From NCBI GenBank assembly GCA_963855995.1, contig OY979719.1, positions 2,604,001 through 2,668,000 on the forward strand: DNA of 64,000 nucleotides, read 5' to 3'. The position numbers were made by a program, and so were the translations under genes. Source of the stretch: Muricea muricata (Eukaryota > Cnidaria > Anthozoa > Malacalcyonacea > Plexauridae). Below, in pieces: positions 10,886-38,918 of the stretch. Position 1 is the first letter of the stretch. Each line of letters begins with the position of its first letter. The notes below the pieces were generated by a model. It saw only the letters and a list, made by a program, of their open reading frames with translations, had not been told where the DNA came from and did not search any database.

Positions 10886-10909
10886 GATAATTAGGCAAGG
10901 CTGTTTATG

Positions 10910-13236: not shown

Positions 13237-13583
13237 AAAAAGGCAATTTAATTTTAATTTTGTGAATTTCGATTACAAAACATGCCTTGGACTGTCGGCC
13301 AATTGATTTCGTCAGGCGATTACAGACTTGTGAGAGGAGGGGGGGGTAGCCTAATTACTAAAATGTAGTGAAAAAAGGACTTTCCATCTAATGGTGGGAG
13401 CAGGTTGGCGGGAACACTGGAGAATAAAGGTCCTGTCACAATGCAATTTTTCTTGCAACTTGAAATGCAATTCTACTATTGGGAGATGTAAAATTGGCAA
13501 ATGCAAGTTTCCATCACAGTTTGCTGGGGTTTTTTAACGTACCAAACATTTGTCACAAATTTACTTAAGAGTAGATTTTCCCT

Positions 13584-13818
13584 GTAGCAAAAAAGATGGC
13601 AAATGTCGATTTTACCAGAGTGCATGGCAGTCTGAAATTGTTTAAAAAGGCAAATTAACGTCTTTTGAAGAACAGACAGAAGACAATAGGTTATTTTCAC
13701 ACTTGTGTTAAAATTTCAATCCAGTAGCTTTGCTTCTTGTCATCTTTTCCCACGTATTCTTTCTTGATACCTGCAATGCATTCTGGTAAAATCGACATGT
13801 CGCCATCTTTTTTGCTAC
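13584..13818. mobile_element. MITE with GTAGCAAAAAAGATGGC ends (copy 1)
   Basis: Inverted arms start GTAGCAAAAAAGATGGC and include TCGATTTTACCAGA; the right end is GCCATCTTTTTTGCTAC. A second copy of the same family lies at 19,276-19,505. Both are mirrored in the right arm (38,339-38,573 and 32,652-32,881), so both inserted before the arms duplicated. Immediately downstream, 13,828-13,975, a GTGCACCGTGTGACAGGGCC-type unit is duplicated in tandem. Confidence 0.75.
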
Positions 13819-16800
13819 GGTGAATGCAAGGAAAAGTGCACCGTGTGACAGGGCCTTAAGGGTAAGAGGTGGATAGAGAAGGAGACGGAGCAGTTACAAG
13901 TGCAAGAAAAATTGCACCGTGTGACGGGGCCTTGAGGGTGGGAGGTGGATAGGAGGAGACGGAGCAGGATGTGGGAGTCGTGCAAGGTCGGGAGGTTAAA
14001 AAAGAACAAGGAATGTTATGTTTTTAATGCCTTTTAGACTTTTCTTGAGGCAATTAAAATTCAAACTGTCAAATCCCAACACTGTACAGAATGGCCGACT
14101 TTACGTGGTCTTTAGTTTTTACACAACCACTTGCATTGTTATCTTTTGCAGTTTGTTTACCATTTCAGTTATCTATCTTCAATAGAATTCTTTGAAATTT
14201 GTTTGTAGATCGACAAAATGCTTAACCTCCTCTCAACAACTGGCAGATTATGAAAAATGAAATTGTTAAAGGTATTGGAATATTGCATGTACAATATTGA
14301 ACATGGGACAATTTGGGACAGTATAATTTTGGACATGACGGTTTCATTCTCACCTAATTTGACGATTATTTTGTGGGTACACATACCGTGGAATCTCATG
14401 TGCTCCAGAAGCATTTTAATCTTAGAAAAAGTCAAATAATGATGAACTGTGTTTTAAAAGAAAGTTAGAATCTTATTTGGTTCAAATCAATTGAATTATG
14501 GCCCAAGAGTTCATGAAAACACATACAAAAGGCTTTCTTAAAAAACTGAAATATCAAATCTAGCAATTTTATATGTTATGCCTCTAAACAACACAAATAT
14601 GTTTCTAAAAATTGGTACCCTACTAGACCTATATGCATGATTATACTAATTTGGACATATTTATTTTTACCCATTAAAATATAAATTTGTGTTTAATCAT
14701 TCGTGTTTGTCATTATTTGACTTTGTAATGTTGGTTAAACATAAGGAGATTGAGGTGACTTTGCCAGAAACAAAAACATCCATTATTATACTAAAATTTC
14801 AATATATATAGCAATTAAAACTAACCGCAGGAAATATATTTCTACTTTTTAATTGAAATGTTTCTGTTATATGCACTATATCATATTTTTGATAAAAAAT
14901 TACAACACCTATGTTATTTCCTGGTTTACTATCTCAATCATCTTTTGTTTAAGCTGGCTTTGAGTGTTCATTTGAAAGTTTGGAAAGTTCATTTGAAAAT
15001 CACAATAGTTCTCAATGTTATATTGGACCCTTTAAAGTTAAAAAAATACTTTGTAATATTTTATACTACTGGTAATTTATCTTAGATACAGACTTTGTGA
15101 TTTTGTACTAGAATGTTGACTTTCAAACTTTAAGATGAACTACTTATTAAGGACAAAATAAGCTAGCATATTGTCTTTTGTTTACAAAGTGGAACTTGTT
15201 TGGAATTGAGATGAACTGATGCAGTTGTTCTTTAACTTTATCAATTAATTACATATCTTAAATGAAAAAGAAAACCACAACTTGCCAAATAAATTCTGTG
15301 GGCTCTTTTTATTAGCAAAGAAAAGATGTGGCGGATGTAAGAATTTAAGAGTAAAAAAGTTTCCTTGGACTAAAAAAATTGACAGTATGCCAGATTTTCT
15401 AGATAAACAAGCAGTACAGATGTTGGCCAATAATAAGTATAAGTAACTACAATTTTTAATTTTAAAAGTTTTCTATTGATGCCTGGATACAGTAAATACT
15501 TTACCAGAGTTCTTCGTATTACATCGACTTGAAAAAGTTTTAAGTCACATGAAGCTTTTAGTTGATACTATGCAATTTCAAATTTTACAGACTTCTTAAT
15601 TAACATGCCAAATTTACCTTGTTGAACATAAGGTCTTTCCTGAGAAAAAGTAAAACTGTCTGGCATTATATGGAGTAGAATAATTTAAATTAGTTTGAGA
15701 CTTTGATTTGATAACAATTTTGATTTGTACTATTTACAATACAAGTGACCGGGTTGTATCGGATATACAAACCCAAGCTGAAGGCGAGATATCTGACATA
15801 CACAGATGCGAATGTTGTAAATGGCTTGTGAAACTCGTCAATTTTATACATCAGATCTATAGCAAAGTGATTTTGAAAATACCGATTCTGTAAGATGAGA
15901 AAATGATTTCTTTTGTGTTTCCTGTATGATTTATTACTTTATAAGTTTCTTAATTAAAATTACAACATATTGCCTACTGGAACTTTTTATATTGTTTGGT
16001 TGTGGTGAATTTGTATTTTGGCAATTGAAATATTTCTGAATTTGTATGTGCATTTCCTTTGCTTCAGTTCAAGTTTACATTTCAAATATTCCACTTTGTA
16101 ATACTTGCGTGGTAATAATAATATAAGAAAACAGGTTTACATGGCTCTTGAATATAGTCTTTTCAACAAGTAAGTAAAGATGAATTTATACTTCAAAGAG
16201 ATATGTTCCTAACCTGACAATGGTACCTTCCAAAAAGACTAAATTTAAATTGATTCTTCGAATAAATTTTTTACTTTTCAATCCAAGATCAATCTAAGTT
16301 ATGTATTTCTACTTTTATTTTGGTCTCTTTAACACTGAAACTATCAATTGTATATAAAGCAACTTCACTATCGAGTGACTTCATTAGTTGCTGGGCAAAG
16401 CCAAAGCATTGATTTTTCGGCTGTTTTCAATGAAAAATAGAATTTTGCCCAAAGTTATCTCAAATAAATTATCACAATTTGAACAAAAAGCTTCTGTTCT
16501 TGTGCCCACCAGAAAAATGAGATGTCTGAGACTTTCTTTGTATTTTTTTGCGAAAAATAGATCGCATGCACTGTTATGCAAAGAAAAGTGTAAGAGATTG
16601 GTTTCTGAAAAATGTCGTGCTACACACAATATTCTAAAAATGCTTGGTTTTTATTCTATGTATTTTTGAATTTTTTGTTAAAAAAAATAAAGGTAGCAAT
16701 GTTTAGTGCATTTCACATTGTCAGGTTAGAAACGCAATAAGAAAAATGTGGCTCCGAACATTACAGCTTGGTCAATTTGGAATTTATAAAAAAATCGTTT

Positions 16801-17035
16801 CTTCGTTGTTTTTCGACGTTTTGAAGGGTTGTTTCGAGTACAAAAAAGTATTTTTAGGAAGAATTATGTGCCCACGTTACATGTCTCAAAGCCATCAAAA
16901 TTCGTTGGTAATTCGTGCATGTATTTTTTCTGACTTATAAAAGCACAATTGATTAAAAATAATATTTTTCTTTTGACAAAAATACCTTTCTTCTGTGAGG
17001 CTAGCTGTATTTGAAAAAGCGTTGGTCAACGCTCC

Positions 17036-17130
17036 GCCAAAACTCGTGGGTTTTCTCCGGGTACTCCGGTTCTTCCCACTGGGAGAGTTGACAGGGTAGT
17101 TACATATGGTTATAAAAATGTGACTAACTT
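17036..17130 (+). mobile_element. SINE central-domain-like fragment
   Basis: The block ACTCGTGGGTTTTCTCCGGG followed by TACTCCGGTT resembles the deeply conserved central domain shared by many animal SINEs (Nin-DC type, from memory). A tRNA-like head is not visible here, so it is a 3' fragment. It is mirrored at 35,027-35,121. A related tail follows the tRNA-like head at 23,340-23,500. Confidence 0.5.
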
Positions 17131-18533
17131 TTGAAAACCTTTCTACTTAGACTTGTTAAGCCTTCTCGTCATCTCTATCAGTTGCATGTTTTGAGCCACA
17201 TGTTTTTCTTTGTAATTGTGAAACAACTCGTTATATGCTGGGTAAACCTTTGCAAAACTCTCAAAATTTATCACTTCAAGTTGTTTCATTGTTATAATAT
17301 ATTTTGAAGTATAAACATTTACTTACGTTGAAAAGACCCAAGTTTTTTAGGACTTTGTTCATTCACTTGTGTTATTGTTCTCTCTGCCATGTTCTGTTTT
17401 CTTCTGTTGTTATTTTAATAAGTACAATGTGTGGTAGTTAATCTCTTTTTATTGTTATTCAAATTGTATGTAATCTTTACAAATTTTTTCAATAAATTGT
17501 TTACAAAATTTACTTGTGACCCCTTTTTAATTAAAAATTCAATTCCCATGGGAATTGAGAAATTGAATAAAAAAAATCCCCCTACCCTGGCCAGCTCCCC
17601 AAGTGCCACTTCCACCTAAGTAGAAGTACTTATACATGTAGTACAAGTACTTCTACTTATTCACGGTGGAAGTAGCACTCGGAGAACTGGCCGGGGTAGC
17701 CGGCAAAGAGAAGACCAACTTTGCAAGTGCTAATACAATTGCTAAGTTGATCTTCCCTAGAGAGCAGCCGCGCGTACCTAACAAATTAAAACAACAAACG
17801 TTAGTGACTTAAGTACTTAGCATGCAAATTTGATTCCCAAAGCCAAAATGTCAAGTGCCCCCCGCTGATCCTACCAACTGCCTACCTGCCTCAGTTCTAA
17901 GCTGTCTTCCTCAGTTCTAAGCTCCTGCATTCCATTCGTTACCTTCACTTTCCTCACCATCGCACAGTCACTCACAGCTGATAAACCCGCATGCACCACC
18001 ACCACCCCGACTGCCACCCAATTTCGAAAATTAAAAGAGTTAAAATTTCGGTAAAGTATGCATTTTAAATGCAATTTATTTGGATATTTTAGATCAAACG
18101 TAAACAGAAAAAGCTCGTACATAAAAACAGGTGAGAATTCTATTTAAAATTTGCTTGCAAAATATAAAACTTAATTCGCATTTTTCTTAGTTAATAGTAT
18201 AGATCAATTTAGTTGATGTTGAAACCTACTCTTAACTGTTTTGTTAGAAGTGACGACAGATTTTGGTTTTTAAGCATACTTTCAAAAATTTTAATTCCTT
18301 TAATAAACCTAACCCCATGCAACTTACACACGGCGCACACCCTCGCAGTCCATACATTTAGCTAATAAATTACGTTATAAACAAAAAAGCAAAATAAAAA
18401 GATAAATTACGTTATCTCTAGCTACTTAAACCCACTTAGACTGAGTTTTTGATTGAATTTTCAAACGTAAAACCTTAGCTGAATGGGCATGGGCTTTTCG
18501 TTGTGTTAACTGTTCCGGAGTAAATATAAACCT

Positions 18534-18775
18534 GGGGCCGGTTGTATCAAAGGCGTTTAGCTTAAACGGTGGATAAGTGAAATTTAAAAATCAGTTTTAC
18601 ACCTAGTACGGAACCGAAATTATGAGTTGAAATAGAATAAATATTTAGTTTTATATATAATTGTTCTTCTCAGGTCAAATAACTTCAGCTGGTTTGTTTA
18701 TACAACATGGAAACGTGTTTCATATTTTTGACTTATCCACCGTTTAAGCTAAACGCCTTTGATACAACCGGCCCC
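18534..18775. mobile_element. MITE with GGGGCCGGTTG ends
   Basis: Terminal inverted repeats of about 45 bases start GGGGCCGGTTGTATCAAAGG and continue with a GCGTTTAGCTTAAACGGTGG block. The equivalent place in A1 (about 4,370, reading AAACCTAATACTTACC) is an empty site, so this is a clean insertion. It is also in the right arm (33,382-33,623), dating the insertion after the A1/A2 split but before the arm duplication. Superfamily unassigned; apparent duplication only about 3 bases. Confidence 0.8.
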
Positions 18776-19275
18776 TGATACTTACCAAAGTCCAAGGCTG
18801 GGTCAAATAAGCATGAGAATTAGGCAAAAATAAAAAGCAATTGAAACTCAACAGATTCACTAAAGTTGTTTTTTTTTGGCAACTTATATCCTTAAGTGTA
18901 GATGACATGCAATTTTTAATGCCGTAATTCTCACACTTATTTAACCGAAACGCCTTCATTTGCATGGTACCTCGCAGCTGCTCTCAAACCACCTTCGTAA
19001 TTTGCTTTAGTGTACACAAACAATGACTTCATTGTTCCTGCTTACCAAAACAAATCTGAAAGCACCAAGATACTTATCATATTAATAATCAAAGAGGATT
19101 CGCATTATGCAGTAATTACCATAAACAGACGCATCACCATTGAAACAAAGCATGCTGTATTCCCATGGGAATTTAAAATGCACAAAAAAATATAATGATC
19201 CTACTGATTTGCATGGATGTATGAACCAAATTAGCTAAGAAACAAAGAAATGATATATTCCCTTGGGAATTTAAT

Positions 19276-19505
19276 GTAGCAAAAAGATGGCGAGTGTTGA
19301 TTTTACCAGAATGCCTTGCGGTCTGAAATCGTTTAAAAACTTAAGGTAAATTAACCTCGTTTGAGGAACAGACAGATAGGTTATTTTGTCACTTGTGTTA
19401 AAATTCCGTCCATTAGCTTATCTTAAATATAATTTCACTGGTATTCTTGATTGATACCCGCATTAAATTCTGGTAAAATCGACATGCCACCATCTGTTTT
19501 GCTAC
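19276..19505. mobile_element. MITE with GTAGCAAAAAGATGGC ends (copy 2)
   Basis: Same family as 13,584-13,818: the arms again carry TTTTACCAGAATGC and end GTTTTGCTAC. Internal sequence (CAGACAGATAGGTTATTTTG) is also shared with copy 1. Confidence 0.7.
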
Positions 19506-20396
19506 GGTGAATTGGAATACAAGTCACATTTTCTCGCTTTTTAACCAGAGAACACATTCTTTAAAGGTAGAACGACGGAATTGATCGTTTGCAATCGACG
19601 CCATCTTTGTTGACGTTTGAAACACATGACAACCACAAAGTATCTATTCATTATATCTGATCGTATCGAGCCATACATCTTTAAAGTATCATTCATAATA
19701 CGCTAAAACTAACGATGAAATAGTAAATTGACACTAGTGTTTCGCTGTAAACAGCTGAAGTAATCTGCAGAGTCAACCAAGATGGCGCCCAATCACACGA
19801 AATGACGGCATGTGCAAACCAAGAATAGTGACAAAATGCATCAACTATAATTTAGTGGCATTATTACGAAACTTATTTTTGTAAAACGTTCAATCCTACA
19901 TGTTATTTTGTTTTGTTTTTAGAAATATCCAAATCCAAATGTTAGAGACGAAATTTCCAGGCGTTAAGGTATTGTTTCTTTAAAAAATATTGTCGACATT
20001 TACCATATTTTTACCTGTTTTTTGACTCGAAAATTGACTGCCAAACTCCTAGATATTCTATTTAATTATTTTGTTGAATGTATTTGATATCAATGTTATT
20101 TCAATCCAATTTTTTTCACTTAATTTGCTGTCTTTTCTTTTTCATTAACGAGAAATATCTATTAAATCCTCTTTGATCCCTCAATAATAAGTATCTTGTT
20201 TTCTACTAACTTGCACATTACCACTACTTTCTATTACAATGTCGTGTCTTCTTATTCTTGTGGATTGTTGTTTTGTGGGTCTTGCCGTCCAGGATCGTTC
20301 ATTCTTTTCTTTTCTTGTGCGTTTTTTTCACATCCCATCACCCTTTGCAATAGTAGAAAGAATTAAGTCATGAGATGATAGTTACGAATAATTTAT

Positions 20397-20541
20397 AAAC
20401 TATAACATGATAAGTTTCTTGTACGTTTGCATGGTGAATACAATATACTTATTAAGCTTTGTGGAAACACCACGTAAATTTATTATTGCAATAATAAATT
20501 TACGTGGTGTTTCCACAAAGCTTAATAAGTAAACTATAACA
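20397..20541. mobile_element. Left-arm-only 134-base insertion containing an 84-base perfect palindrome
   Basis: A 13-base direct repeat TAAACTATAACAT (20,396-20,408 and 20,530-20,542) brackets 134 extra bases absent from the right arm, where the sequence runs directly through one copy near 31,750. Inside, 20,447-20,530 is a perfect palindrome whose halves read AATAAATTTACGTGGTGTTT and CCACAAAG. That motif also occurs at 7,040-7,080 and in the tail of the Penelope-like fragment at 45,470-45,500, suggesting two head-to-head Penelope tails. A deletion in the right arm through the 13-base repeat is the alternative. Confidence 0.7.
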
Positions 20542-20551
20542 TATTAAGCAC

Positions 20552-20686
20552 TTATTGGATGAGGTTTTTGTGATATGCGAAATGATCAATGTCGAGGTAA
20601 GAGTTATCAGCCGAGCCGAAGGCGAGTCAGATAACTCTCACCAAGACATTGATAATTTTGCATATCACAAAAACCGAATCCGATAA
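20552..20686. repeat. Hairpin shared by both young arms
   Basis: Inverted halves run from GGATGAGGTTTTTGTGATAT to ATATCACAAAAACCGAATCC around a GAGTTATCAGCCGAGCCGAA loop. Mirrored at about 31,607-31,741. Probably an old MITE; no duplication resolved. Confidence 0.6.
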
Positions 20687-20906
20687 TTGCTTTATTATAC
20701 ATTGTAAGTCTTTTTCCTCGAGCAATTGACGAATTTCGCCTTCGGAAGAGCTTAAAAAGCAAGATGCCATAACATGAAACAGAAAATATCGAAAAAATGT
20801 TGTTGCCATGCCAACCATTGATGCCAACGAATACCGCACACTGTTATAATCTGCACCGTAGGCTCAACATGCAGATAACTCAGTTATCTGCTAGCAGATA
20901 ACTGAG

Positions 20907-21130
20907 CCATAGAATAAGAATACATAGAAGGGCCACTCGCGTCGGAGCCTTTGGAGTTTTTGAAGCCGCGCATGTCGCATTACGCACGTTATTAGCATTT
21001 TCTCAGCCAGTCAATTGCATTTTCTGGCCAATAGGAATGCTGAACTGGCTGGTGGCAGCCAGTAAACTGCATAAACATAGTGTGACATGTTGCACTGCTG
21101 AGTGGCCCTTCTATGTATTCTTATTGTATG
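20907..21130. mobile_element. Left-arm-only MITE with 6-base target-site duplication
   Basis: A 224-base element with terminal inverted repeats of about 30 bases containing AATAAGAATACATAGAAGGG. ACTGAG is duplicated at 20,901-20,906 and 21,131-21,136. The right arm has a single uninterrupted copy of that site (reverse complement CTCAGT at 31,387-31,392), a textbook empty site. The insertion therefore happened after the arms became separate sequences. Confidence 0.9.
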
Positions 21131-21216
21131 ACTGAGTTATCTGCAGATTGTGTGATAGTCGCATTTATCTGCATACAACTGACCAATCACAACGCATAAA
21201 ACAACTGCAATGTATA

Positions 21217-21581
21217 GTAATTAACACTTATTGACTGAGACCGAGGGAAACAGTATGTTTTGTGGACCAGAGACTGTCGATGTCGAGGGTCCACAAAACA
21301 TACTGCTTTCCCGAGGTCTCAGTCAATAAGTATTTTATTATATACTGAGTGCCAAAAGAGAAGAAAAGTACCACAAATCAATCAAACATGTGTAAAAAGG
21401 ATTACCTTTTACCTGACATGGCTACGTGAGGCTTTGTGGATTTGTTGTCTACCGGTGAATAAAAGTAATGTCCACCGCTTAGCTACGTTGCCAGGGAGAC
21501 AATAGAATTTCTCCACTATCACGTGATACGTTCTTAACCAATAAGAAACAGGAATAAATGAACTTTGACACTCAGTATATT
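21217..21581. mobile_element. Left-arm-only 365-base composite of two hairpin elements
   Basis: The block is absent from the right arm at 31,306/31,307. It contains a hairpin at about 21,227-21,335 (ACTTATTGACTGAGACCGAG and its reverse complement) and a second inverted-repeat unit with ends TACTGAGTGCCAAA and TTTGACACTCAGTA flanked by TA (about 21,343-21,579). This suggests one element inserted beside or into another. The duplication at the outer junction is not clean. Confidence 0.7.
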
Positions 21582-23267
21582 ATAAAATAGTATTAATTAG
21601 GCCGGCCAAATTATTGTGTAAGCTGTTAATATGAAATTTTTTTATTAAAATCTCGAGAATCATTAATAAATCGTGAGCAAAACACAAAAGAAAATCATAG
21701 CCGTGAAGGAGTCTTTATTTCTCACACGCACACAACTTGCAGCTACCCTAATTTATGAATTTAGATTAAAATATCTCGAGAATTAAACAACACGTAAGGA
21801 ATGTGTAAATTCTTAAAGCTCTTTCGAACAATAAAAATTAATATCTCGCACTAATCTCTCTCAAAAGCTCTCTCAAATTTATTGCCGATATCTCTTTGAG
21901 AATTACTGTGCACGTGAAATGTAACTTATATCAAAACTAGCTTACTTCAAGCTGTTTGGGAATCAAGATTTTACGTGTCAACGAGATCAAATATGAATCT
22001 AAGATGGCAGACAGCGCATTAAATTTCTATCTTTACGACCAACTCCCCAACGAAAGGCTTTAATTCGCTCGAAAGTCGAATTTTGTTTTTTTTTTTATTG
22101 TTTCAGGTAGTGAAAGATCCTGTGTGCTTTTTACAGTACTACCGACACTAGCAACGTTAGTGCGAGATGTTAATTTTTATTGAAACAAAAGCTGAACTGC
22201 TAAAAAAATGGAAACGACAAGATAAAATAAAAAAACTTACTTTCACTCTATCTTTGGATCTTCTTGGCTTCGGTTGTTCTCGTTTCATCATGCTGTTTAT
22301 GGTTTCATCTGGTTGGCGCACTCTCTTCATGGAGCATCAAGGCGGTCCAGTAGGTAACTAGCTCACTCGTGTCCAGTCAACCAACATAAAATAAGGAGAA
22401 AATTAATGTTACAAAATATTTTAGAATATAGGACACTAAGCTTTAATTGAATTGACTTTAACAAACCGTACATTGTGATAGTATTTGCATCTTAACATCT
22501 GATGGAGACGGCTTGTGATTTACTTCTTATGTCGATATGAATTCTTTCCCATCTTGTTGCATCATTAGTTGATGGTTGTTGTATTCACTTTTTACTTGGC
22601 ATTCTTTGAAAAAAAAATTACGATGTTCAGAAAACTGTTTACAAGATAAGCAAAGAAAACTACGTTCACAAGCATTAGAGAGGACTAAGTAATTATAATA
22701 GGCGTGACAGGTCACAGAGGTTAGTCGACGAAGAAACTCATGGACAAATTCCCGGCATGATGATATTCCGATAGCAAGAAGTACAGCAAGTGTAGAACGT
22801 GTACGTGTAAGCTTAAACTGTATCTATGCAACTCCAAGAAAAGCGCAACACAAAATGGCGGAATTTAAAGACATTTCTGGTGTCATTTCCAGTTCCCTAA
22901 CTTTCGCGGACAAATATATTTATATATTTTTCTCAAATTTTTTTGAAGTAAATCTAGATGGATTTTGTGAATAAACAAATTGAAAAAAGTATTGCCCACG
23001 TTAGGAAACTAGAACGGGCGCCCAAGAATGCCCACAATTTCTCCAATCTGGATTATATTTATTGATTGCGCAAATGACTGATAAAAAATAAGAGAGTAAT
23101 AAAATACCAAATGGTTTCCTCTTCAAGATAGTGTCATACATGCGCGCGGCATTTCGGGATATTTGGGAAAACTCATGTTGAAGTTGAACGTAAGGCAACA
23201 TGCCAAGTACATGGATGACGCTATCCTGCTCAGGAAACTATTTAGTAATTGTCTTACAAAATGATTA

Positions 23268-23589
23268 CAGTGAAACACAAGTCAACGCCACGGCATTTAA
23301 ATTTCTCGTGTAGGATTGTTTGATCCTGCACAGTAATAGCCAAGTGGCGCAATCGTCAGAGCAAACGCCTATCACATGTGAGGTCGTGGGTTCAATCCTT
23401 ACTTCAGACTCGTGACACCCATGTGAGGAGTTAGTCAGTCGTGGGTTTATCCCGGGTACTCCGGTTTGCGAATGTTGACTGGATGGTTAAAATTGTAAAA
23501 TATCAGTAATCACCGGAACACGGGTACTTAACTAAACTGCTGACGATGAGGCGGAACTCATAATGAATTAATGAAAATGTGTTTCACTG
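23268..23589 (+). mobile_element. TA-flanked element carrying a tRNA-derived SINE body
   Basis: The ends are TA-CAGTGAAACACA and TGTGTTTCACTG-TA, a Tc1/mariner-like MITE terminus. Inside are box A (AGTGGCGCAATCGTCAGAGC) and box B (GTGGGTTCAATCC) of a tRNA-like polymerase III promoter, then a GTGGGTTTATCCCGGGTACT tail as in conserved SINE central domains. Mirrored at 29,300-29,621. Either a SINE inserted inside a MITE or a composite mobile unit; the diverged A1 copy has the same left junction. Confidence 0.7.
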
Positions 23590-23679
23590 TAGTTATCATA
23601 TAATGTAATTGCCAAGCTGAATGAATAATTCTCCAGTAACTACGTCATATGAATAACTTACAATTATGAGAGTAGTGGG

Positions 23680-23940
23680 GGAGGGGGGGCAGCATAAAGA
23701 TTGAAGTAGTGTCAAGGAAGGGGTACTACCCTGACGGGTACTAGGCGAAGAAGTAGAGTAAACAGGAGGAAGAAAATTAAATTGGAGTAAATAAGGGGGA
23801 TTGGGGTAAAGAAGGGGAGAAGCAGGATAAAGAAACCAGTGGAAGGGGGTGCTATCCTGGAAGGAGTACCCGGGAAAGAAGAGGGTGAACAGGAGGAAAA
23901 GTAGATTGGAGAAAAGAAAGGGGAAATTAAACGGATCAGG
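23680..23940 (+). repeat. Purine-rich degenerate tandem tract
   Basis: GGAAG/AGGAG-rich units with GGGTACTACCC and GGAGTACCCGGG steps, counterpart of 10,910-11,260 and mirrored at 28,930-29,215. The long pyrimidine-strand reading frame through it gives a low-complexity Pro/Phe/Leu/Ser peptide and is not considered a gene. Confidence 0.6.
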
Positions 23941-25234
23941 AAATTCAGACTTGCAATTCAAATGAAAGGCAGCTCATTGGTCATGTAAACACTCGTTGAA
24001 TCATGGTTCTCGCTTGCCTTTAGCTTGGAATCATCTTTGAATTTGAACTGAAAGTCTGAATTTGCATGTTTCTTGTATAGAGTGCAGTGTATCAGAACAG
24101 AAGAGGTTTTGAAGAAAAAGAAAGAAAGAATAAAAGTAAGTTAAAATTTGTAAAGAATAATGAAGAAACTATTGGTACAGCACTTGATACATGATGATAA
24201 TCATCATTATAAACTCTCTATTAATCCGGGGGGGGGGGTATAATAGAGAATTTGCAATGATAGTAAGTATATTGTAATATTTGGGTTTTTACCACTAAAT
24301 CCTCTTGAAAGTTCTTTTTGGCTGTGGCTTCTCTCATCACAGTTGTCTGTGCTTGTCTTGCAAAATCTCTGGAATATCTATAACGTGAAGGTCAATATTT
24401 AAGATCAGAAAAATAGAAACCGTAAAATAGAAAGAAATTTAAATCGTGGCGAATACTTTTTACGGTCTTGCTGGCATGACAAAAAGAGAGTATAGATTTA
24501 TAAGATCATGTTGATTTATCCTTTATCTGAACTATATTTAACTTAGATTTTAAAATAGATTTCATCCTGGTAAGCAGACCGAATGGGTTTTCAAACAAGA
24601 TAACATTTAATGACTAAAACGTGCACAGAATAGTTAGAGAATGCTTACATGTCGAATAAAAATCCAATACTTTTAATGTCCAACTACACAATAGCGATTT
24701 TCGTTGCATTTCTAGACTGGAGAAGAAGACGACGCCATTTTGATTTTGATTTCTCCCGACAACGGCAGATTTGTCTTCGCAATTTTTTTCCATTTCTTCG
24801 TCGTTTCAGCTCCAATTTGCTCGTTGTGTTTCTTTCGTACCTTCCTCGCCATTTCCGTACAATCAATGGACATTTATACTCAAGATTAAGACTGTATTGA
24901 GACTTTCAAAATGTTCGTCAGGAGACATAAAAATCGAAGCTTCTTCTTCGGGTTGCAGAAGCAAATGACGTCAGACGACCTTTGTCCGCCAGCAAATACC
25001 CGTATGTATAACATTCAATGATCTTTTTAGGAAGCTGAAAATCAGTTTTTATTGCGCGAACGAAATGTTTTTGCCATTATTTCTTACTCAGGTCTTTGTT
25101 CTACTACTTTACTTCCAGTTTAGTTAGGTAACTTGCCAAAAGAAACGCCTGTAAGGGACAATTTTGCATTTTTTTTTATTTCGATGCTGATGAAGAAGAG
25201 AAGACTCGTTAGAGCTTTCATTGGCAAATATCTT

Positions 25235-25385
25235 TCCCTCCGTGGCCGAGAGGTAAAGACAACTGTCTTGACTTCGATTTTGGGTGGATCGAGGACCGGT
25301 CCAGTTCAACTGAGTTTGGTAAGAATTTAATTCTGATCGGTGCTCGATCCACCCAAAACTGAATTCAAAGCTGGGCGTGGAGTGC
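25235..25385 (+). repeat. tRNA-like box A followed by a GGTGGATCGAGGACC hairpin
   Basis: TCCGTGGCCGAGAGGTAAAG resembles the box A region of tRNA-Ser or tRNA-Leu. The following TTTTGGGTGGATCGAGGACC pairs with GGTGCTCGATCCACCCAAAA at about 25,343-25,362. Diverged versions lie near 41,655-41,815 and, reversed, 44,760-44,945, where the middle instead reads GAATTGCCCACATCGCCTGG. No complete tRNA cloverleaf can be drawn, so this is at best a tRNA-derived repeat. Confidence 0.4.
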
Positions 25386-26614: not shown

Positions 26615-29600
26615 ACATTAACAGTGTCAGTAATGTTTAAAACCCGGCAACCTTGAAAACAAGTTGATTTTACGACCGAACTGCAGTTTCCTTGTGACAC
26701 AACCTATAAAATCCATTATGTACAAGCTGTGAGTTGGAAACGTTCCTATTGGCAGTGAACATAAGTGTCCATTGTAGGATCAATAGTTACCTATCAAGGA
26801 TATCTTGACGCTCGTAGCTTATATAAAACCACGCGTTCTACAGTGCCATCTTGTTATCTCATTGGAAGAGCAAAACACTGCCATTCAGTGTTTGGGAATT
26901 AAACCCAAGGCCATAAGTATATGGCTCCTATATCAAGGACACTGAACACAATGGCATATAATGCTCGATCAAGAAAGAAACGACTGACGGAAAGTTAATA
27001 ATAATGATGCAAAATTTTACTTTTCCTCTTGCAAAGATCTGGTAAAAGATCGTTAAACAGCTGAAGTACTTAAAACATGACTAGACGGCTTTGATTTAGT
27101 AAGCGTTGTCGTCCTTGATTCTTTCCTAAAAGAAAACATTTGCTTTCAAGGCTTTAATGTGTTTGCGCATCTTTGCGCATCCATGGTCGTACCGTAAGCG
27201 TTAGGAAGAAGTCAGCCATATATTATTGGCACAGTGTAGTGGTTTAGCTAGCTAAACCACTACACTGTGGCTTTAAAGTGTAGTGGTTTAGTGGTGTATT
27301 GAAGTCTTTTCGTCGTTATTTCTCGATGAAGACAACTTGTCTTCTTGAACGAAGGGAAATAACGACGAGAAGTCTTCAATGCACCAACCCTACAGGTCTG
27401 TCCCCAACAGTCAAGTTAATGAAATTTGCTTAAATATTAGTTAACAACACTAGGAAAATAACGTTTGCCTCCTTGGCCTCGCGGTACTGCCTAGTGTTTT
27501 CCTGCACTCCACGCCCAGCTTTGAATTCAGTTTTGGGTGGATCGAGCACCGATCAGAATTAAATTCTTACCAAACTCAGTTGAACTGGACCGGTCCTCGA
27601 TCCACCCAAAATCGAAGTCAAGACAGTTGTCTTTACCTCTCGGCCACGGAGGGAAAGATATTTGCCAATGAAAGCTCTAACGAGTCTTCTCTTCTTCATC
27701 AGCATTGAAATAAAAAAAAATGCAAAATTGTCCCTTACAGGCGTTTCTTTTGGCAAGTTACGTAACTAAACTGGAAGTAAAGTAGTAGAACAAAGACCTG
27801 AGTAAGAAATAATGGCAAAAACATTTCGTTCGCGCAATAAAAACTGATTTTCAGCTTCCTAAAAAGATCATTGAATGTTATACATACGGGTATTTGCTGG
27901 CGGACAAAGGTCGTCTGACGTCATTTGCTTCTGCAACCCGAAGAAGAAGCTTCGATTTTTATGTCTCCTGACGAACATTTTGAAAGTCTCAATACAGTCT
28001 TAATCTTGAGTATAAATGTACATTGATTGTACGGAAATGGCGAGGAAGGTACGAAAGAAACACAACGAGCAAATTGGAGCTGAAACGACGAAGAAATGGA
28101 AAAAAATTGCGAAGACAAATCTGCCGTTGTCGGGAGAAATCAAAATCAAAATGGCGTCGTCTTCTTCTCCAGTCTAGAAATGCAACGAAAATCGCTATTG
28201 TGTAGTTGGACATTAAAAGTATTGGATTTTTATTCGACATGTAAGCATTCTCTAACTATTCTGTGCACGTTTTAGTCATTAAATGTTATCTTGTTTGAAA
28301 ACCCATTCGGTCTGCTTACCAGGGTGAAATCTATTTTAAAATCTAAGTTAAATATAGTTCAGATAAAGGATAAATCAACATGATCTTATAAATCTATACT
28401 CTCTTTTTGTCATGCCAGCAAGACCGTAAAAAGTATTCGCCACGATTTAAATTTCTTTCTATTTTACGGTTTCTATTTTTCTAATCTTAAATATTGACCT
28501 TCACGTTATAGATATTCCAGAGATTTTGCAAGACAAGCACAGACAACTGTGATGAGAGAAGCCACAGCCAAAAAGAACTTTCAAGAGGATTTAGTGGTAA
28601 AAACCCAAATATTACAATATACTTACTATCATTGCAAATTCTCTATTATACCCCCCCCCCCGGATTAATAGAGAGTTTATAATGATGATTATCATCATGT
28701 ATCAAGTGCTGTACCAATAGTTTCTTCATTATTCTTTACAAATTTTAACTTACTTTTATTCTTTCTTTCTTTTTCTTCAAAACCTCTTCTGTTCTGATAC
28801 ACTGCACTCTATACAAGAAACATGCAAATTCAGACTTTCAGTTCAAATTCAAAGATGATTCCAAGCTAAAGGCAAGCGAGAACCATGATTTAACGAGTGT
28901 TTACATGACCAATGAGCTGCCTTTCATTTGAATTGCAAGTCTGAATTTCCTGATCCGTTTAATTTCCCCTTTCTGTACTCCAATCTACTTTTCCTCCTGT
29001 TCACCCTCTTCTTTCCCGGGTACTCCTTCCAGGATAGCACCCCCTTCCACTGGTTTCTTTATCCTGCTTCTCCCCTTCTTTACCCCAATCCCCCTTATTT
29101 ACTCCAATTTAATTTTCTTCCTCCTGTTTACTCTACTTCTTCGCCTAGTACCCGTCAGGGTAGTACCCCTTCCTTGACACTACTTCAATCTTTATGCTGC
29201 CCCCCCCCCCCACTACTCTCATAATTGTAAATTATTCATATGACGTAGTTACTGGAGAATTATTCATTCAGCTTGGCAATTACATTATATGATAACTACA
29301 GTGAAACACATTTTCATTAATTCATTATGAGTTCCGCCTCATCGTCAGCAGTTTAGTTAAGTACCCGTGTTCCGGTGATTACTGATATTTTACAATTTTA
29401 ACCATCCAGTCAACATTCGCAAACCGGAGTACCCGGGATAAACCCACGACTGACTAACTCCTCACATGGGTGTCACGAGTCTGAAGTAAGGATTGAACCC
29501 ACGACCTCACATGTGATAGGCGTTTGCTCTGACGATTGCGCCACTTGGCTATTACTGTGCAGGATCAAACAATCCTACACGAGAAATTTAAATGCCGTGG

Positions 29601-32600
29601 CGTTGACTTGTGTTTCACTGTAATCATTTTGTAAGACAATTACTAAATAGTTTCCTGAGCAGGATAGCGTCATCCATGTACTTGGCATGTTGCCTTACGT
29701 TCAACTTCAACATGAGTTTTCCCAAATATCCCGAAATGCCGCGCGCATGTATGACACTATCTTGAAGAGGAAACCATTTGGTATTTTATTACTCTCTTAT
29801 TTTTTATCAGTCATTTGCGCAATCAATAAATATAATCCAGATTGGAGAAATTGTGGGCATTCTTGGGCGCCCGTTCTAGTTTCCTAACGTGGGCAATACT
29901 TTTTTCAATTTGTTTATTCACAAAATCCATCTAGATTTACTTCAAAAAAATTTGAGAAAAATATATAAATATATTTGTCCGCGAAAGTTAGGGAACTGGA
30001 AATGACACCAGAAATGTCTTTAAATTCCGCCATTTTGTGTTGCGCTTTTCTTGGAGTTGCATAGATACAGTTTAAGCTTACACGTACACGTTCTACACTT
30101 GCTGTACTTCTTGCTATCGGAATATCATCATGCCGGGAATTTGTCCATGAGTTTCTTCGTCGACTAACCTCTGTGACCTGTCACGCCTATTATAATTACT
30201 TAGTCCTCTCTAATGCTTGTGAACGTAGTTTTCTTTGCTTATCTTGTAAACAGTTTTCTGAACATCGTAATTTTTTTTTCAAAGAATGCCAAGTAAAAAG
30301 TGAATACAACAACCATCAACTAATGACGCAACAAGATGGGAAAGAATTCATATCGACATAAGAAGTAAATCACAAGCCGTCTCCATCAGATGTTAAGATG
30401 CAAATACTATCACAATGTACGGTTTGTTAAAGTCAATTTCAATTAACGCTTAGTGTCCTATATTCTAAAATATTTTGTAACATTAATTTTCTCCTTATTT
30501 TATGTTGGTTGACTGGACACGAGTGAGCTAGTTACCTACTGGACCGGCGTGATGTTCCGTGAAGAGAGTGCGCCAACCAGATGAAACCATAAACAGCATG
30601 ATGAAACGAGAACAACCGAAGCCAAGAAGATCCAAAGATAGAGTGAAAGTAAGTTTTTTGATTTTATCTTGTCGTTTCTATTTTCTTTAGCAGTTCAGCT
30701 TTCGTTTCAATAAAAATTAACATCTCGCACTAACGTTGCTAGTGTTGGCAGTGCTGTAAAAAGCACACAGGATCTTTCACTACATTAAACAATAAAAAAA
30801 CAAAATTCGACTTTCGAGCGAATTAAAGCCTTTCGTTGGGGAGTTGGTCGTAAAGATAGAAATTTAATGCGCTGTCTGCCATCTTAGATTCATATTTGAT
30901 CTCGTTGACACGTAAAATCTTAATTCCCAAACAACTTGAAGTAAGCTAGTTTTGATAGAAGTTACATTTCACCTGCAAAGTAATAGTTGAAGAGATATTG
31001 GTAATAAATTTGAGAGAGCTTTTGAGAGAGATTAGTGCGAGATATTAATTTTTATTGTTCGAAAGAGCTTTAAGAATTTACACATTCCTTACGTGTTGTT
31101 TAATTCTCGAGATATTTTGATTTAAAATCATAAATTAGGGTAGCTGCAAGTTGTGTGCGTGTGAGAAATAAAGACTCCTTCACGGCTATGATTTTCTTTT
31201 GTGTTTTGTTCACGATTTACTAATGATTCTCGAGATTTTAATAAAAAAATTTCATATTAACAGCTTACACAATAATTTGGCCGGCCTAATTAATAAACTA
31301 TTTTATTATACATTGCAGTTGTTTTATGCGTTGTGATTGATCAGTTGTATGCAGATAAATGCGACTATCACACAATCTGCAGATAACTCAGTTATCTGCT
31401 AGCAGATAACTGAGTTATCTGGATGTTGAGCCTACGGTGCAGATTATTACGGTATGCGGTATTCGTTGGCATCAATGGTTGGCATGGCAACAACATTTTT
31501 TCGATATTTTCTGTTTCATGTTGTGGCATCTTCCTTTTTAAGCTCTTCCGAGGGCGAAATGCGTCAATTGCTCGAGGAAAAAGACTTAAAATGTATAATA
31601 AAGCAATTATCGGATTCGGTTTTTGTGATATGCAAAATTATCAATCTCTCGGTAAGAGTTATCTGACTCGCCTTCGGCTCGGCTGATAACTCTTACCTCG
31701 ACATTGATAATTCCGCATATCACAAAAACCTCATCCAATAATTGTTTAATATGTTATAGTTTATAAATTACTCGTAACTATCATCTCATGATTTAATTCT
31801 TTCTACTATTGCAAAGGGTGATGGGATGTGAAAAAAACGCACAAGAAAAGAAAAGAATGAACGATCCTGGACGACAAGACCCACAAAACAACAATCCACA
31901 AGAATGAGAAGACACGACATTGTAATAGAAAGTAGTGGTAATGTGCAAGTTAGTAGAAAACAAGATACTTATTGAGGGATCAAAGAGGATTTAATAGATA
32001 TTTCTCGTTAATGAAAAAGAGAAGACAGCAAATTAAGTGAAAAAAATTGGATTGAAATAACATTGATATCAAATACATTCAACAAAATAATTAAATAGAA
32101 TACCTAGGAGTTTGGCAGTCAATTTTCGAGTCAAAAAACAGGTAAAAATATGGTAAATGTCGACAATATTTTTTAAAGAAACAATACCTTAACGCCTGGA
32201 AATTTCGTCTCTAACATTTGGATTTGGATATTTCTAAAAACAAAACAAAATAACATGTAGGATTGAACGTTTTACAAAAATAAGTTTCGTAATAATGCCA
32301 CTAAATTATAGTTGATGCATTTGGTCACTATTTTTGGTTTGCACATGCCGTCATTTCGTGTGATTGGGCGCCATCTTGGTTGACTCTGCAGATTACTTCA
32401 GCTGTTTACAGCGAAGTACTTGTGTCAATTTACTATTTCATCGTTAGTTTTAGCGTATTATGAATGATACTTTAAAGATGTATGGCTCGATAGGATCAGA
32501 TATAATGAATAGATACTTTGTGGTTGCCATGTGTTTCAAACGTCAACAAAGATGGCGTCGATTGTAAACGATCAATTCCGTCGTTCTACCTTTAAAGAAT

Positions 32601-35600
32601 GTGTTCTCTGGTTAAAAAGCGAGAAAATTTGACTTGTATTCCAATTCACCGTAGCAAAACAAATGGTGGCATGTCGATTTTACCAGAATTTAATGCGGGT
32701 ATCAATCAAGAATAGCAGTGAAATGATATTTAACATAAGCTAATGGACGGAATTTTAACACAAGTGACAAAATAACCTATCTGTCTGTTCCTCAAACGAG
32801 GTTAATTTACCTTAAGTTTTTAAACGATTTCAGACCGCAAGGCATTCTGGTAAAATCAACACCCGCCATCTTTTTGCTACATTAAATTCCCAAGGGAATA
32901 TATCATTTCTTTGTTTCTTAGCTAATTTGGTTCATACATCCATGCAAATCAGTAGGATCATTATATTTTTTTGTGCATTTTAAATTCCCATGGGAATACA
33001 GCATGCTTTGTTTCAATGGTGATGCGTCTGTTTATGGTAATTACTGCATAATGCGAATCCTCTTTGATTATTAATATGATAAGTATCTTGGTGCTTTCAG
33101 ATTTGTTTTGGTAAGCAGGAACAATGAAGTCATTGTTTGTGTACACTAAAGCAAATTACGAAGGTGGTTTGAGAGCAGCTGCGAGGTACCATGCAAATGA
33201 AGGCGTTTCGGTTAAATAAGTGTGAGAATTACGGCATTAAAAATTGCATGTCATCTACACTTAAGGATATAGGTTGCCAAAAAAAAAACAACTTTAGTGA
33301 ATCTGTTGAGTTTCAATTGCTTTTTATTTTTGCCTAATTCTCATGCTTATTTGACCCAGCCTTGGACTTTGGTAAGTATCAGGGGCCGGTTGTATCAAAG
33401 GCGTTTAGCTTAAACGGTGGATAAGTCAAAAATATGAAACAAGTTTCCATGTTGTATAAACAAACCAGCTGAAGTTATTTGACCTGAGAAGAACAATTAT
33501 ATATAAAACTAAATATTTATTCTATTTCAACTCATAATTTCGGTTCCGTACTAGGTGTAAAACTGATTTTTAAATTTCACTTATCCACCGTTTAAGCTAA
33601 ACGCCTTTGATACAACCGGCCCCAGGTTTATATTTACTCCGGAACAGTTAACACAACGAAAAGCCCATGCCCATTCAGCTAAGGTTTTACGTTTGAAAAT
33701 TCAATCAAAAACTCAGTCTAAGTGGGTTTAAGTAGCTAGAGATAACGTAATTTATCTTTTTATTTTGCTTTTTTGTTTATAACGTAATTTATTAGCTAAA
33801 TGTATGGACTGCGAGGGTGTGCGCCGTGTGTAAGTTGCATGGGATTAGGTTTATTAAAGGAATTAAAATTTTTGAAAGTATGCTTAAAAACCAAAATCTG
33901 TCGTCACTTCTAATAAAACAGTTAAGAGTAGGTTTCAACATCAACTAAATTGATCTATACTATTAACTAAGAAAAATGCGAATTAAGTTTTATATTTTGC
34001 AAGCAAATTTTAAATAGAATTCTCACCTGTTTTTATGTACGAGCTTTTTCTGTTTACGTTTGATCTAAAATATCCAAATAAATTGCATTTAAAATGCATA
34101 CTTTACCGAAATTTTAACTCTTTTAATTTTCGAAATTGGGTGGCAGTCGGGGTGGTGGTGGTGCATGCGGGTTTATCAGCTGTGAGTGACTGTGCGATGG
34201 TGAGGAAAGTGAAGGTAACGAATGGAATGCAGGAGCTTAGAACTGAGGAAGACAGCTTAGAACTGAGGCAGGTAGGCAGTTGGTAGGATCAGCGGGGGGC
34301 ACTTGACATTTTGGCTTTGGGAATCAAATTTGCATGCTAAGTACTTAAGTCACTAACGTTTGTTGTTTTAATTTGTTAGGTACGCGCGGCTGCTCTCTAG
34401 GGAAGATCAACTTAGCAATTGTATTAGCACTTGCAAAGTTGGTCTTCTCTTTGCCGGCTACCCCGGCCAGTTCTCCGAGTGCTACTTCCACCGTGAATAA
34501 GTAGAAGTACTTGTACTACATGTATAAGTACTTCTACTTAGGTGGAAGTGGCACTTGGGGAGCTGGCCGGGGTAGGGGGATTTTTTTTATTCAATTTCTC
34601 AATTCCCATGGGAATTGAATTTTTAATTAAAAAGGGGTCACAAGTAAATTTTGTAAACAATTTATTAAAAAAATTTGTAAAGATTACATACAATTTGAAT
34701 AACAATAAAAAGAGATTAACTACCACACATTGTACTTATTAAAATAACAACAGAAGAAAACAGAACATGGCAGAGAGAACAATAACACAAGTGAATGAAC
34801 AAAGTCCTAAAAAACTTGGGTCTTTTCAACGTAAGTAAATGTTTATACTTCAAAATATATTATAACAATGAAACAACTTGAATTGATAAATTTTGAGAGT
34901 TTTGCAAAGGTTTACCCAGCATATAACGAGTTGTTTCACAATTACAAAGAAAAACATGTGGCTCAAAACATGCAACTGATAGAGATGACGAGAAGGCTTA
35001 ACAAGTCTAAGTAGAAAGGTTTTCAAAAGTTAGTCACATTTTTATAACCATATGTAACTACCCTGTCAACTCTCCCAGTGGGAAGAACCGGAGTACCCGG
35101 AGAAAACCCACGAGTTTTGGCGGAGCGTTGACCAACGCTTTTTCAAATACAGCTAGCCTCACAGAAGAAAGGTATTTTTGTCAAAAGAAAAATATCATTT
35201 TTAATCAATTGTGCTTTTATAAGTCAGAAAAAATACATGCACGAATTACCAACGAATTTTGATGGCATTGAGACATGTAACGTGGGCACATAATTCTTCC
35301 TAAAAATACTTTTTTGTACTCGAAACAACCCTTCAAAACGTCGAAAAACAACGAAGAAACGATTTTTTTATAAATTCCAAATTGACCAAGCTGTAATGTT
35401 CGGAGCCACATTTTTCTTATTGCGTTTCTAACCTGACAATGTGAAATGCACTAAACATTGCTACCTTTATTTTTTTTAACAAAAAATTCAAAAATACATA
35501 GAATAAAAACCAAGCATTTTTAGAATATTGTGTGTAGCACGACATTTTTCAGAAACCAATCTCTTACACTTTTCTTTGCATAACAGTGCATGCGATCTAT

Positions 35601-38600
35601 TTTTCGCAAAAAAATACAAAGAAAGTCTCAGACATCTCATTTTTCTGGTGGGCACAAGAACAGAAGCTTTTTGTTCAAATTGTGATAATTTATTTGAGAT
35701 AACTTTGGGCAAAATTCTATTTTTCATTGAAAACAGCCGAAAAATCAATGCTTTGGCTTTGCCCAGCAACTAATGAAGTCACTCGATAGTGAAGTTGCTT
35801 TATATACAATTGATAGTTTCAGTGTTAAAGAGACCAAAATAAAAGTAGAAATACATAACTTAGATTGATCTTGGATTGAAAAGTAAAAAATTTATTCGAA
35901 GAATCAATTTAAATTTAGTCTTTTTGGAAGGTACCATTGTCAGGTTAGGAACATATCTCTTTGAAGTATAAATTCATCTTTACTTACTTGTTGAAAAGAC
36001 TATATTCAAGAGCCATGTAAACCTGTTTTCTTATATTATTATTACCACGCAAGTATTACAAAGTGGAATATTTGAAATGTAAACTTGAACTGAAGCAAAG
36101 GAAATGCACATACAAATTCAGAAATATTTCAATTGCCAAAATACAAATTCACCACAACCAAACAATATAAAAAGTTCCAGTAGGCAATATGTTGTAATTT
36201 TAATTAAGAAACTTATAAAGTAATAAATCATACAGGAAACACAAAAGAAATCATTTTCTCATCTTACAGAATCGGTATTTTCAAAATCACTTTGCTATAG
36301 ATCTGATGTATAAAATTGACGAGTTTCACAAGCCATTTACAACATTCGCATCTGTGTATGTCAGATATCTCGCCTTCAGCTTGGGTTTGTATATCCGATA
36401 CAACCCGGTCACTTGTATTGTAAATAGTACAAATCAAAATTGTTATCAAATCAAAGTCTCAAACTAATTTAAATTATTCTACTCCATATAATGCCAGACA
36501 GTTTTACTTTTTCTCAGGAAAGACCTTATGTTCAACAAGGTAAATTTGGCATGTTAATTAAGAAGTCTGTAAAATTTGAAATTGCATAGTATCAACTAAA
36601 AGCTTCATGTGACTTAAAACTTTTTCAAGTCGATGTAATACGAAGAACTCTGGTAAAGTATTTACTGTATCCAGGCATCAATAGAAAACTTTTAAAATTA
36701 AAAATTGTAGTTACTTATACTTATTATTGGCCGACATCTGTACTGCTTGTTTATCTAGAAAATCTGGCATACTGTCAATTTTTTTAGTCCAAGGAAACTT
36801 TTTTACTCTTAAATTCTTACATCTGCCACATCTTTTCTTTGCTAATAAAAAGAGCCCACAGAATTTATTTGGCAAGTTGTGGTTTTCTTTTTCATTTAAG
36901 ATATGTAATTAATTGATAAAGTTAAAGAACAACTGCATCAGTTCATCTCAATTCCAAACAAGTTCCACTTTGTAAACAAAAGACAATATGCTAGCTTATT
37001 TTGTCCTTAATAAGTAGTTCATCTTAAAGTTTGAAAGTCAACATTCTAGTACAAAATCACAAAGTCTGTATCTAAGATAAATTACCAGTAGTATAAAATA
37101 TTACAAAGTATTTTTTTAACTTTAAAGGGTCCAATATAACATTGAGAACTATTGTGATTTTCAAATGAACTTTCCAAACTTTCAAATGAACACTCAAAGC
37201 CAGCTTAAACAAAAGATGATTGAGATAGTAAACCAGGAAATAACATAGGTGTTGTAATTTTTTATCAAAAATATGATATAGTGCATATAACAGAAACATT
37301 TCAATTAAAAAGTAGAAATATATTTCCTGTGGTTAGTTTTAATTGCTACATATATTGAAATTTTAGTATAATAATGGATGTTTTTGTTTCTGGCAAAGTC
37401 ACCTCAATCTCCTTATGTTTAACCAACATTACAAAGTCAAATAATGACAAACACGAATGATTAAACACAAATTTATATTTTAATGGGTAAAAATAAATAT
37501 GTCCAAATTAGTATAATCATGCATATAGGTCTAGTAGGGTACCAATTTTTAGAAACAGAATTGTGTTGTTTAGAGGCATAACATATAAAATTGCTAGATT
37601 TGATATTTCAGTTTTTTAAGAAAGCCTTTTGTATGTGTTTTCATGAACTCTTGGGCCATAATTCAATTGATTTGAACCAAATAAGATTCTAACTTTCTTT
37701 TAAAACACAGTTCATCATTATTTGACTTTTTCTAAGATTAAAATGCTTCTGGAGCACATGAGATTCCACGGTATGTGTACCCACAAAATAATCGTCAAAT
37801 TAGGTAAGAATGAAACCGTCATGTCCAAAATTATACCGTCCCAAATTGTCCCATATTCAATATTGTACATGCAATATTCCAATACCTTTAACAATTTCAT
37901 TTTTCATAATCTGCCAGTTGTTGAGAGGAGGTTAAGCATTTTGTCGATCTACAAACAAATTTCAAAGAATTCTATTGAAGATAGATAACTGAAATGGTAA
38001 ACAAACTGCAAAAGATAACAATGCAAGTGGTTGTGTAAAAACTAAAGACCACGTAAAGTCGGCCATTCTGTACAGTGTTTGGATTTGACAGTTTGAATTT
38101 TAATTGCCTCAAGAAACGTCTAAAAGGCATTAAAAACATAACATTCCTTGTTCTTTTTTAACCTCTCGACCTTGCACGACTCCCACATCCTGCTCCGTCT
38201 CCTCCTATCCACCTCCCACCCTCAAGGCCCTGTCACACGGTGCAATTTTTCTTGCACTTGTAACTGCTCCGTCTCCTTCTCTATCCACCTCTTACCCTTA
38301 AGGCCCTGTCACACGGTGCACTTTTCCTTGCATTCACCGTAGCAAAAAAGATGGCGACATGTCGATTTTACCAGAATGCATTGCAGGTATCAAGAAAGAA
38401 TACGTGGGAAAAGATGACAAGAAACAAAGCTACTGGATTGAAATTTTAACACAAGTGTGAAAATAACCTATTGTCTTCTGTCTGTTCTTTAAAAGACGTT
38501 AATTTGCCTTTTTAAACAATTTCAGACTACCATGCACTCTGGTAAAATCGACATTTGCCATCTTTTTTGCTACAGGGAAAATCTACTCTTAAGTAAATTT

Positions 38601-38918
38601 GTGACAAATGTTTGGTACGTTAAAAAACCCCAGCAAACTGTGATGGAAACTTGCATTTGCCAATTTTACATCTCCCAATAGTAGAATTGCATTTCAAGTT
38701 GCAAGAAAAATTGCATTGTGACAGGACCTTTATTCTCCAGTGTTCCCGCCAACCTGCTCCCACCATTAGATGGAAAGTCCTTTTTTCACTACATTTTAGT
38801 AATTAGGCTACCCCCCTCCTCTCACAAGTCTGTAATCGCCTGACGAAATCAATTGGTCGACAGTCCAAGGCATGTTTTGTAATCGAAATTCACAAAATTA
38901 AAATTAAATTGCCTTTTT
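26615..38918 (-). repeat. Giant palindrome, right arm (A3)
   Basis: Reverse complement of the left arm. It is about 0.74 kb shorter because it lacks the insertions at 20,397-20,541, 20,907-21,130 and 21,217-21,581. The outer boundary at 38,918 is sharp: the next base begins repeat X2. It carries mirrored copies of the MITEs, SINE and hairpins described for the left arm. A short frame at 28,037-28,177 beginning MARKVRKKHNEQ is noted but unsupported as a gene. Confidence 0.95.

Follow-up and report, generated by a model that had tools for sequence, protein, structure and literature searches.

The window, by which we mean the whole 64-kb stretch analysed here, is occupied between 13237 and 38918 by a palindrome of 25.7 kb, in which two inverted arms (A and B) surround a 338-base spacer (Table 1). 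The earlier note had described two arms of 12–13 kb forming a near-perfect palindrome around such a spacer, and both self-BLAST and global alignment bore this out at the same coordinates. Self-BLAST recovered three inverted blocks, 13237–20408 / 38918–31751 (99.3%, 7173 columns), 20530–20906 / 31763–31387 (95.8%) and 21578–26276 / 31310–26615 (98.9%). Arm identity, previously put at 97–99%, was 99.16% by global alignment (12,196 matches in 12,299 aligned columns), and the 103 substitutions comprised 65 transitions and 38 transversions. The arms also differ by 12 indels, the three large ones (134, 230 and 365 bp) all being extra sequence in arm A. There are no N bases in the window (A+C+G+T = 64,000). 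The spacer holds a MITE-like unit (26323–26598) with imperfect inverted ends of 28 nt (89%) and partial similarity to 26048–26189 of the arms, and at the axis of the palindrome inverted MITE-like units face each other at 26048–26087 and 26551–26590.

Table 1. Features of the locus, with positions counted from the first base of the window.
Feature	Coordinates	Strand	Length	Description
C-left	874..12111	+		older paralogue of arm A 14928–24440, colinear, 62–90% identity by segment
Q1	12116..13236	+		Helentron/HINE-like 5' end (12116–12530 alike to Q2) and about 700 bp
Arm A	13237..26276	+	13,040 bp	99.16% identity to arm B
Divergent block of arm A	19414..22349	+		64 substitutions in 2,200 aligned columns (2.9%)
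Insertion 1 in arm A	20396..20529	.	134 bp	flanking direct repeat of 13 bp
Insertion 2 in arm A	20901..21130	.	230 bp	MITE-like, inverted ends; flanking direct repeat of 6 bp
Insertion 3 in arm A	21217..21581	.	365 bp	two adjoining inverted-repeat elements; flanking repeat of only 3 bp
Spacer	26277..26614	.	338 bp
Arm B	26615..38918	-	12,304 bp
Q2	38919..40739	+		HINE-like; 5' hairpin/subTIR at 38919; 3' limit inferred from published features
C-right	40862..42506	+		same older paralogue continued (arm 24460–26036); first 90 bp weak, firm from 40950
C'	43091..45152	-		decayed partner of C-right in inverted orientation; S1 identity 82%; axis near 42,894
Further arm-like piece	45111..45456	-		matches arm 17442–18092, about 81%

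The palindrome had been said to contain no genes. Pfam searches of the six frames of arm A and the spacer (13237–26614, with X at each stop) returned no family at E ≤ 0.1, those of 1–13236 returned none at E ≤ 0.01, and coding remnants in these two stretches were rejected on this ground. No Rfam family attained its gathering score anywhere in the window, and ARAGORN found no tRNA. The claim therefore stands in the sense that nothing was detected by Pfam on arm A and spacer, by Rfam on the whole window or by ARAGORN; untranslated or lineage-specific genes may be present. Arm A and the spacer gave 22 sub-threshold Rfam matches, 19 of them to miRNA models, which we take as chance matches to hairpins. 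The same region contains 53 inverted-repeat pairs no more than 1.2 kb apart, and many of the 25 listed are MITE-like in form. Of the "MITE/SINE mosaic" proposed for the arms, the MITE part is supported and the SINE part was not confirmed, neither ARAGORN nor the 22 sub-threshold Rfam matches giving anything tRNA-like.

The flanks contain an older relative of the arm, C. In a sensitive search (E ≤ 1e-4), arm and flanks gave 33 matches, 22 direct and 11 inverted. The direct matches paired arm 14928–24440 with 874–12111 and arm 24552–26036 with 40950–42489, and 18 of the 22 formed one colinear chain, against 12 at most in shuffled data (0 of 20,000). The four off the chain all lay within C' or beside it, from 44,000 onwards, and a hand-picked subset without these four and three secondary matches was wholly colinear (15/15). 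Identity between the arm and the older copy was 62–90% in 14 aligned segments. The stretch 3166–4850 is 83–89% alike to arm 17356–19189, other segments being mostly at 62–78%; this high likeness might reflect conversion between old and young copies, constraint or a younger repeat. No arm match was found in 45504–64000 at E ≤ 1e-4.

The homology to C ends at 12111, five bases ahead of the 5' end of Q1. By local alignment it restarts at arm 24460 / 40862, 19 bases on in arm coordinates. The alignment of arm 24441–24552 with 40723–40949 did not reach significance (score 14, null mean 12.8). When the joined empty site was aligned by MAFFT, the join fell at arm 24385 and the gaps were long. After Q2 comes an unmatched stretch of 122–210 bp, like neither Q nor the arm; the part between the inferred 3' end of Q2 and the resumed C is 40740–40861 (about 122 bp). 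Because C breaks off and then resumes, the sequence between, the whole palindrome included, is inserted. Judged from these alignments, C is interrupted at 12111–12116 and resumes at 40862–40950, and the insert into C measures about 28.6 kb (roughly 12116–40739).

Compared directly with each other, the two flanks share the Q elements and one 50-column match. In inverted orientation (1–13236 against 38919–64000, E ≤ 1e-3) there are five pieces of 48–158 columns and 73–89% identity, four between C-left and 45118–45503 and one between 12906–12982 and 46694–46618; none of the five lies next to an arm end, and none is near-allelic. The last piece, in which the Q1 region matches the right flank in inverted orientation over 77 columns at 73%, is probably a dispersed repeat. 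Our analysis adds to the earlier description that the two flanks together make up a single older paralogue of the arm, that this paralogue has its own decayed inverted partner, and that the ends of the insert resemble those of rolling-circle elements.

This partner, C', was paired with C-right by BLAST at 41429–42249 / 45152–44352 (77%) and 42378–42506 / 43229–43101 (86%), and C-right and C' together are a decayed palindrome themselves. An ORF inserted in C' (43661–44326) has no Pfam family at E ≤ 0.01 and has the look of a reverse-transcriptase fragment. The further arm-like piece at 45111–45456 could belong to C', about 7 kb of which would then have been lost, or be a repeat copy in its own right. 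The four arms were compared over three segments. Identities in S1 were 99.6% (A–B), 82.0% (C–C'), 83.7% (A–C) and 78.5% (A–C'), those in S2 were 100%, 86.0%, 80.9% and 82.7%, and those in S3 were 99.7%, 80.1%, 92.4% and 80.9%, in the same order. The young arms are thus more alike within their palindrome (99.6–100%) than between palindromes (78–92% to C or C'), and C–C' exceeds A–C in one segment of three, S2. In S1, 69 informative sites group A with B and C with C' and none supports either of the other two splits (ultrafast bootstrap 100), so A and B are not unconverted descendants of the two old arms. This count in large part restates the near-identity of A and B; it would be the same under conversion and under a new duplication of one C-like arm, and does not demonstrate concerted evolution of C and C'. 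By arithmetic, the last shared unit is about 410 bases away from one palindrome axis and 406 from the other, and these similar distances hint at a common origin of both palindromes. Homology of the two centres themselves was not supported (central 400 bp score 29.5, 95% null 28, reverse-complement control 33.5).

Other features of the right flank are of mixed kinds. Seven ORFs within 43661–63672 were searched with Pfam. Two laminin-G ORFs at 60958–63672, one with an EGF-like stretch below cut-off, and a weak ABC1-kinase match under the Pfam cut-off at 55053–55424 are likely gene pieces. A self-inverted element of roughly 460 bp (45844–46305, 80%) overlaps the ORF 45686–46078, which has no Pfam family at E ≤ 0.01. 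At 47107–49616, 20-bp repeat arrays in opposite orientation precede a 21-bp satellite that has a palindromic core and about 92 copies, and tandem repeats of 66–79 bp with 91–95% matches lie at 59249–59654.

The edges of the insert are formed by Q1 and Q2. From 12116 and 38919 onwards the two are alike for about 350–415 bp; they share an initial 28-base hairpin, and a 55-bp match of 98% is followed by 90% over 295. The sequence ACTCCGCCTGCC stands at both 12116 and 38919 as a palindromic subTIR, with its reverse complement at 40688, and both 5' copies fold as hairpins (z −3.8 and −5.2). Allowing two mismatches, GGCAGGCGGAGT occurs at 7 sites in the window against a chance mean of 0.99; the two 5' hairpins account for four of these, the mirrored arm site 18004/34142 for two and 40688 for one. 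No 3' subterminal repeat of Q1 was found before arm A at up to two mismatches. The interior and 3' parts of Q2 contain a 31-bp minisatellite (39838–40130), a 3' subTIR (40688–40699), a stem (40702–40717) and a T-run. The stem has 6 bp and an energy within that of shuffles (z −1.2), and the 3' subTIR abuts the T-run, so that the published position, 2–4 bases inside, is matched only if Ts are counted. Arm B ends in GCCTTTTT right before Q2, and arm A, as the unoccupied site, reads GCCTTTTT followed directly by TCAATAA. Since arm B stops at Q2 in the T-run while arm A runs on, Q2 seemingly entered a palindrome that was once longer. A T-run is also present on the right side of Q2. Taken by their form, the edges of the insert look like Helentron/HINE-like rolling-circle ends, the 5' end being that of Q1 and the 3' end that of Q2. 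The insert and the 3' end of Q are known from one locus, within the 64-kb window. The exact 5'-end patterns of Q had no match in viral and prokaryote contigs, which say little here.

Divergence between the young arms is patchy. Beyond the divergent block of arm A (Table 1) it falls to 39 substitutions in 10,099 columns (0.39%), and the clustering of substitutions gave a likelihood ratio of 100, where the highest value among 200 shuffles was 21; the grid of cut points was coarser for the shuffles than for the data. All three large insertions fall within the block. The 134- and 230-bp extras look like insertions because of their flanking direct repeats, and the former may also be a repeat-mediated deletion in arm B. 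Nearly all of an 86-bp perfect palindrome (20446–20531) lies within the 134-bp sequence, and short copies similar to this palindrome are found at 7032–7079 and 45464–45503. Taking the older paralogue as outgroup, we could test 24 of the 103 differences between A and B: 9 are derived in B, 6 are derived in A and 9 are undecided.

A single, very recent copying seems to fit the patchy divergence less well than conversion or an allelic mosaic does. It is plausible that arm-to-arm gene conversion keeps A and B alike, and a failure of conversion around insertions would give the observed pattern. A deep allelic block, with one arm derived from the homologue, would give it too. Arm B may accordingly have had the homologous chromosome or a different allele as its template, which would need no block missed by conversion; a deep block of allelic divergence would yield the same contrast of 2.9% against 0.39%, and derived changes are present in both arms. 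However, if the palindrome was ancestral to both copies, the likeness of A and B would need later homogenisation. We regard this allelic origin of the patchiness, which is compatible with the other readings of the locus, as a tentative possibility.

The palindrome, the interruption and resumption of C, the common 5' ends of Q1 and Q2, the matching repeat near the 3' end of Q2 and the junction of arm B with Q2 are all read off the sequence. We propose that they reflect a genuine palindromic duplication without detected genes and not a misassembly, and that this duplication would have been delivered, in the insert of about 28.6 kb, into its older relative C by rolling-circle read-through; we put the probability of this at about one half. 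At a donor locus, Q2 would first have entered the T-run of arm B, which then belonged to a longer palindrome. Q1, having no 3' terminator of its own, would then have begun rolling-circle transposition and read through the palindrome as far as the terminator of Q2, and the product would have been inserted into C. Afterwards, arm-to-arm gene conversion would have kept the arms alike, save for the block of about 2.9 kb in which insertions disrupt pairing. We infer the single transposition event, the donor locus, the exact 3' limit of Q2 and the gene conversion; recombination between Q copies is another route by which the same layout could arise. Weighing against the proposal are its restriction to one locus, the indirect placing of the 3' end of Q2 and the unmatched 122–210 bp that follow. 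We make no claim of a host function for the palindrome.

An ordinary inverted segmental duplication is the rather unlikely alternative in which a replication template switch, or a broken end folding back, at the MITE-rich axis copied A as B, the Q elements being unrelated insertions. The inverted MITE-like units at 26048–26087 and 26551–26590 would suit such an event, and fold-back suits a spacer of a few hundred bases. A–C identity above C–C' in two of the three segments fits a new duplication of a C-like arm, and HINE-like elements can be common, so that two of them near the edges could be there by chance. However, such a duplication gives no reason for C to resume beyond the insert or to break within 5 bp of the 5' end of Q1, nor for arm B to end exactly at the 5' end of Q2. 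A further alternative is an assembly artefact in which two haplotypes, as the earlier note had suggested, or two loci were joined head to head at the spacer. An arm divergence of about 0.8%, together with the insertion differences, falls within the allelic range. In one bdelloid rotifer assembly there were palindromes that were undetected in a close relative, and related breaks of collinearity were suspected to be scaffolding errors (PMC5916493, consulted in part). Nevertheless, the flanks are the two halves of an interrupted C, in phase and in the same orientation, and a head-to-head misjoin of haplotypes is therefore unlikely; the flanks carry no near-allelic inverted sequence and are not allelic to each other (the five inverted pieces are 73–89% identical, none of them at arm ends), and the window is without N. 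The three large insertion differences and the 2.9% block speak against one molecule folded back on itself. We consider an artefact very improbable.

The two palindromes of one family, one nested in the other, might also suggest a giant foldback (long-TIR) transposon family whose mobile unit ends at 13237 and 38918. Arm B, however, stops at a T-run that Q2 occupies, whereas arm A continues past it, and a transposon with these ends was rejected on the absence of a target-site duplication at 13236/38919 (...TTTATTGA before arm A, ACTCCGCC after arm B). We judge this reading very improbable. Read-through transposition remains our preferred account. Its extension to a class of giant non-coding, self-nesting palindromes, which would spread as Helentron-type read-through cargo, land in older copies of themselves and have their arms homogenised by conversion between moves, is doubtful.

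Large palindromes are usually discussed for the genes of sex chromosomes. A palindrome in which no genes were detected, which lies in an older palindrome of its family and was apparently moved as rolling-circle cargo, would connect transposition, palindrome birth and arm conversion at a single locus, and conversion could be measured there free of selection on genes. Searching for an older interrupted copy across both flanks is a test, made from sequence only, of a true palindrome against a misjoin. Among titles and the beginnings of abstracts, with subscription journals thinly covered, nothing of this kind was found for palindromes carried by Helitrons, nor, among the matches listed, for giant foldback elements.

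The known systems closest to the edges of the insert are Helentrons and HINEs. According to the parts of these reports consulted, HINEs target T-rich sites and have palindromic subTIRs of 12–15 bp as well as a 3' palindrome, and some copies contain tandem repeats (PMC4067079), and Helentrons and Helitron2 insert at TT or TTTT/T (PMC5148889). Like these DINE-1-like elements, the ends described here have a palindromic 5' subTIR, a matching 3' subTIR and a central minisatellite, and on its left side, where arm A gives the unoccupied site, Q2 would have inserted between Ts without target-site duplication (PMC4067079, PMC5148889). Unlike them, the ends would enclose 28.6 kb, mostly palindrome, the 3' hairpin is weak and there is one locus only. 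No Rep/Hel domain was found by six-frame Pfam in 1–13236 and 13237–26614. Experiments have documented read-through for the Helitron Helraiser (PMC4778049, in the part consulted), in which an element whose 3' hairpin is absent or bypassed takes up downstream DNA as far as another terminator. There, however, the cargo was a 1.6-kb cassette, mobilised by a canonical Helitron in cultured cells, whereas the present case would involve a Helentron-type end and, as cargo, a palindrome of 25.7 kb.

As for palindromes, those of sex chromosomes with arm conversion (e.g. PMC8981503, seen in part) likewise have arm identities above 99%, but in the present case no coding sequence was detected and the palindrome is nested in an older one of the same family. 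In the long inverted repeats of Caenorhabditis (PMC1803023, in the portion available to us), arms are closer to each other than to relatives, as seen here for the young palindrome only, and intergenic sequence is included; the examples in that portion involve gene pairs, with intergenic arms of 124–160 bp, whereas our arms are 12–13 kb long and without detected genes. Springtail palindromes (PMC5490193, likewise seen in part) are also large, intrachromosomal and found in an invertebrate, but they are defined by gene order and have wide Ks ranges, and their authors reject concerted evolution as the explanation.
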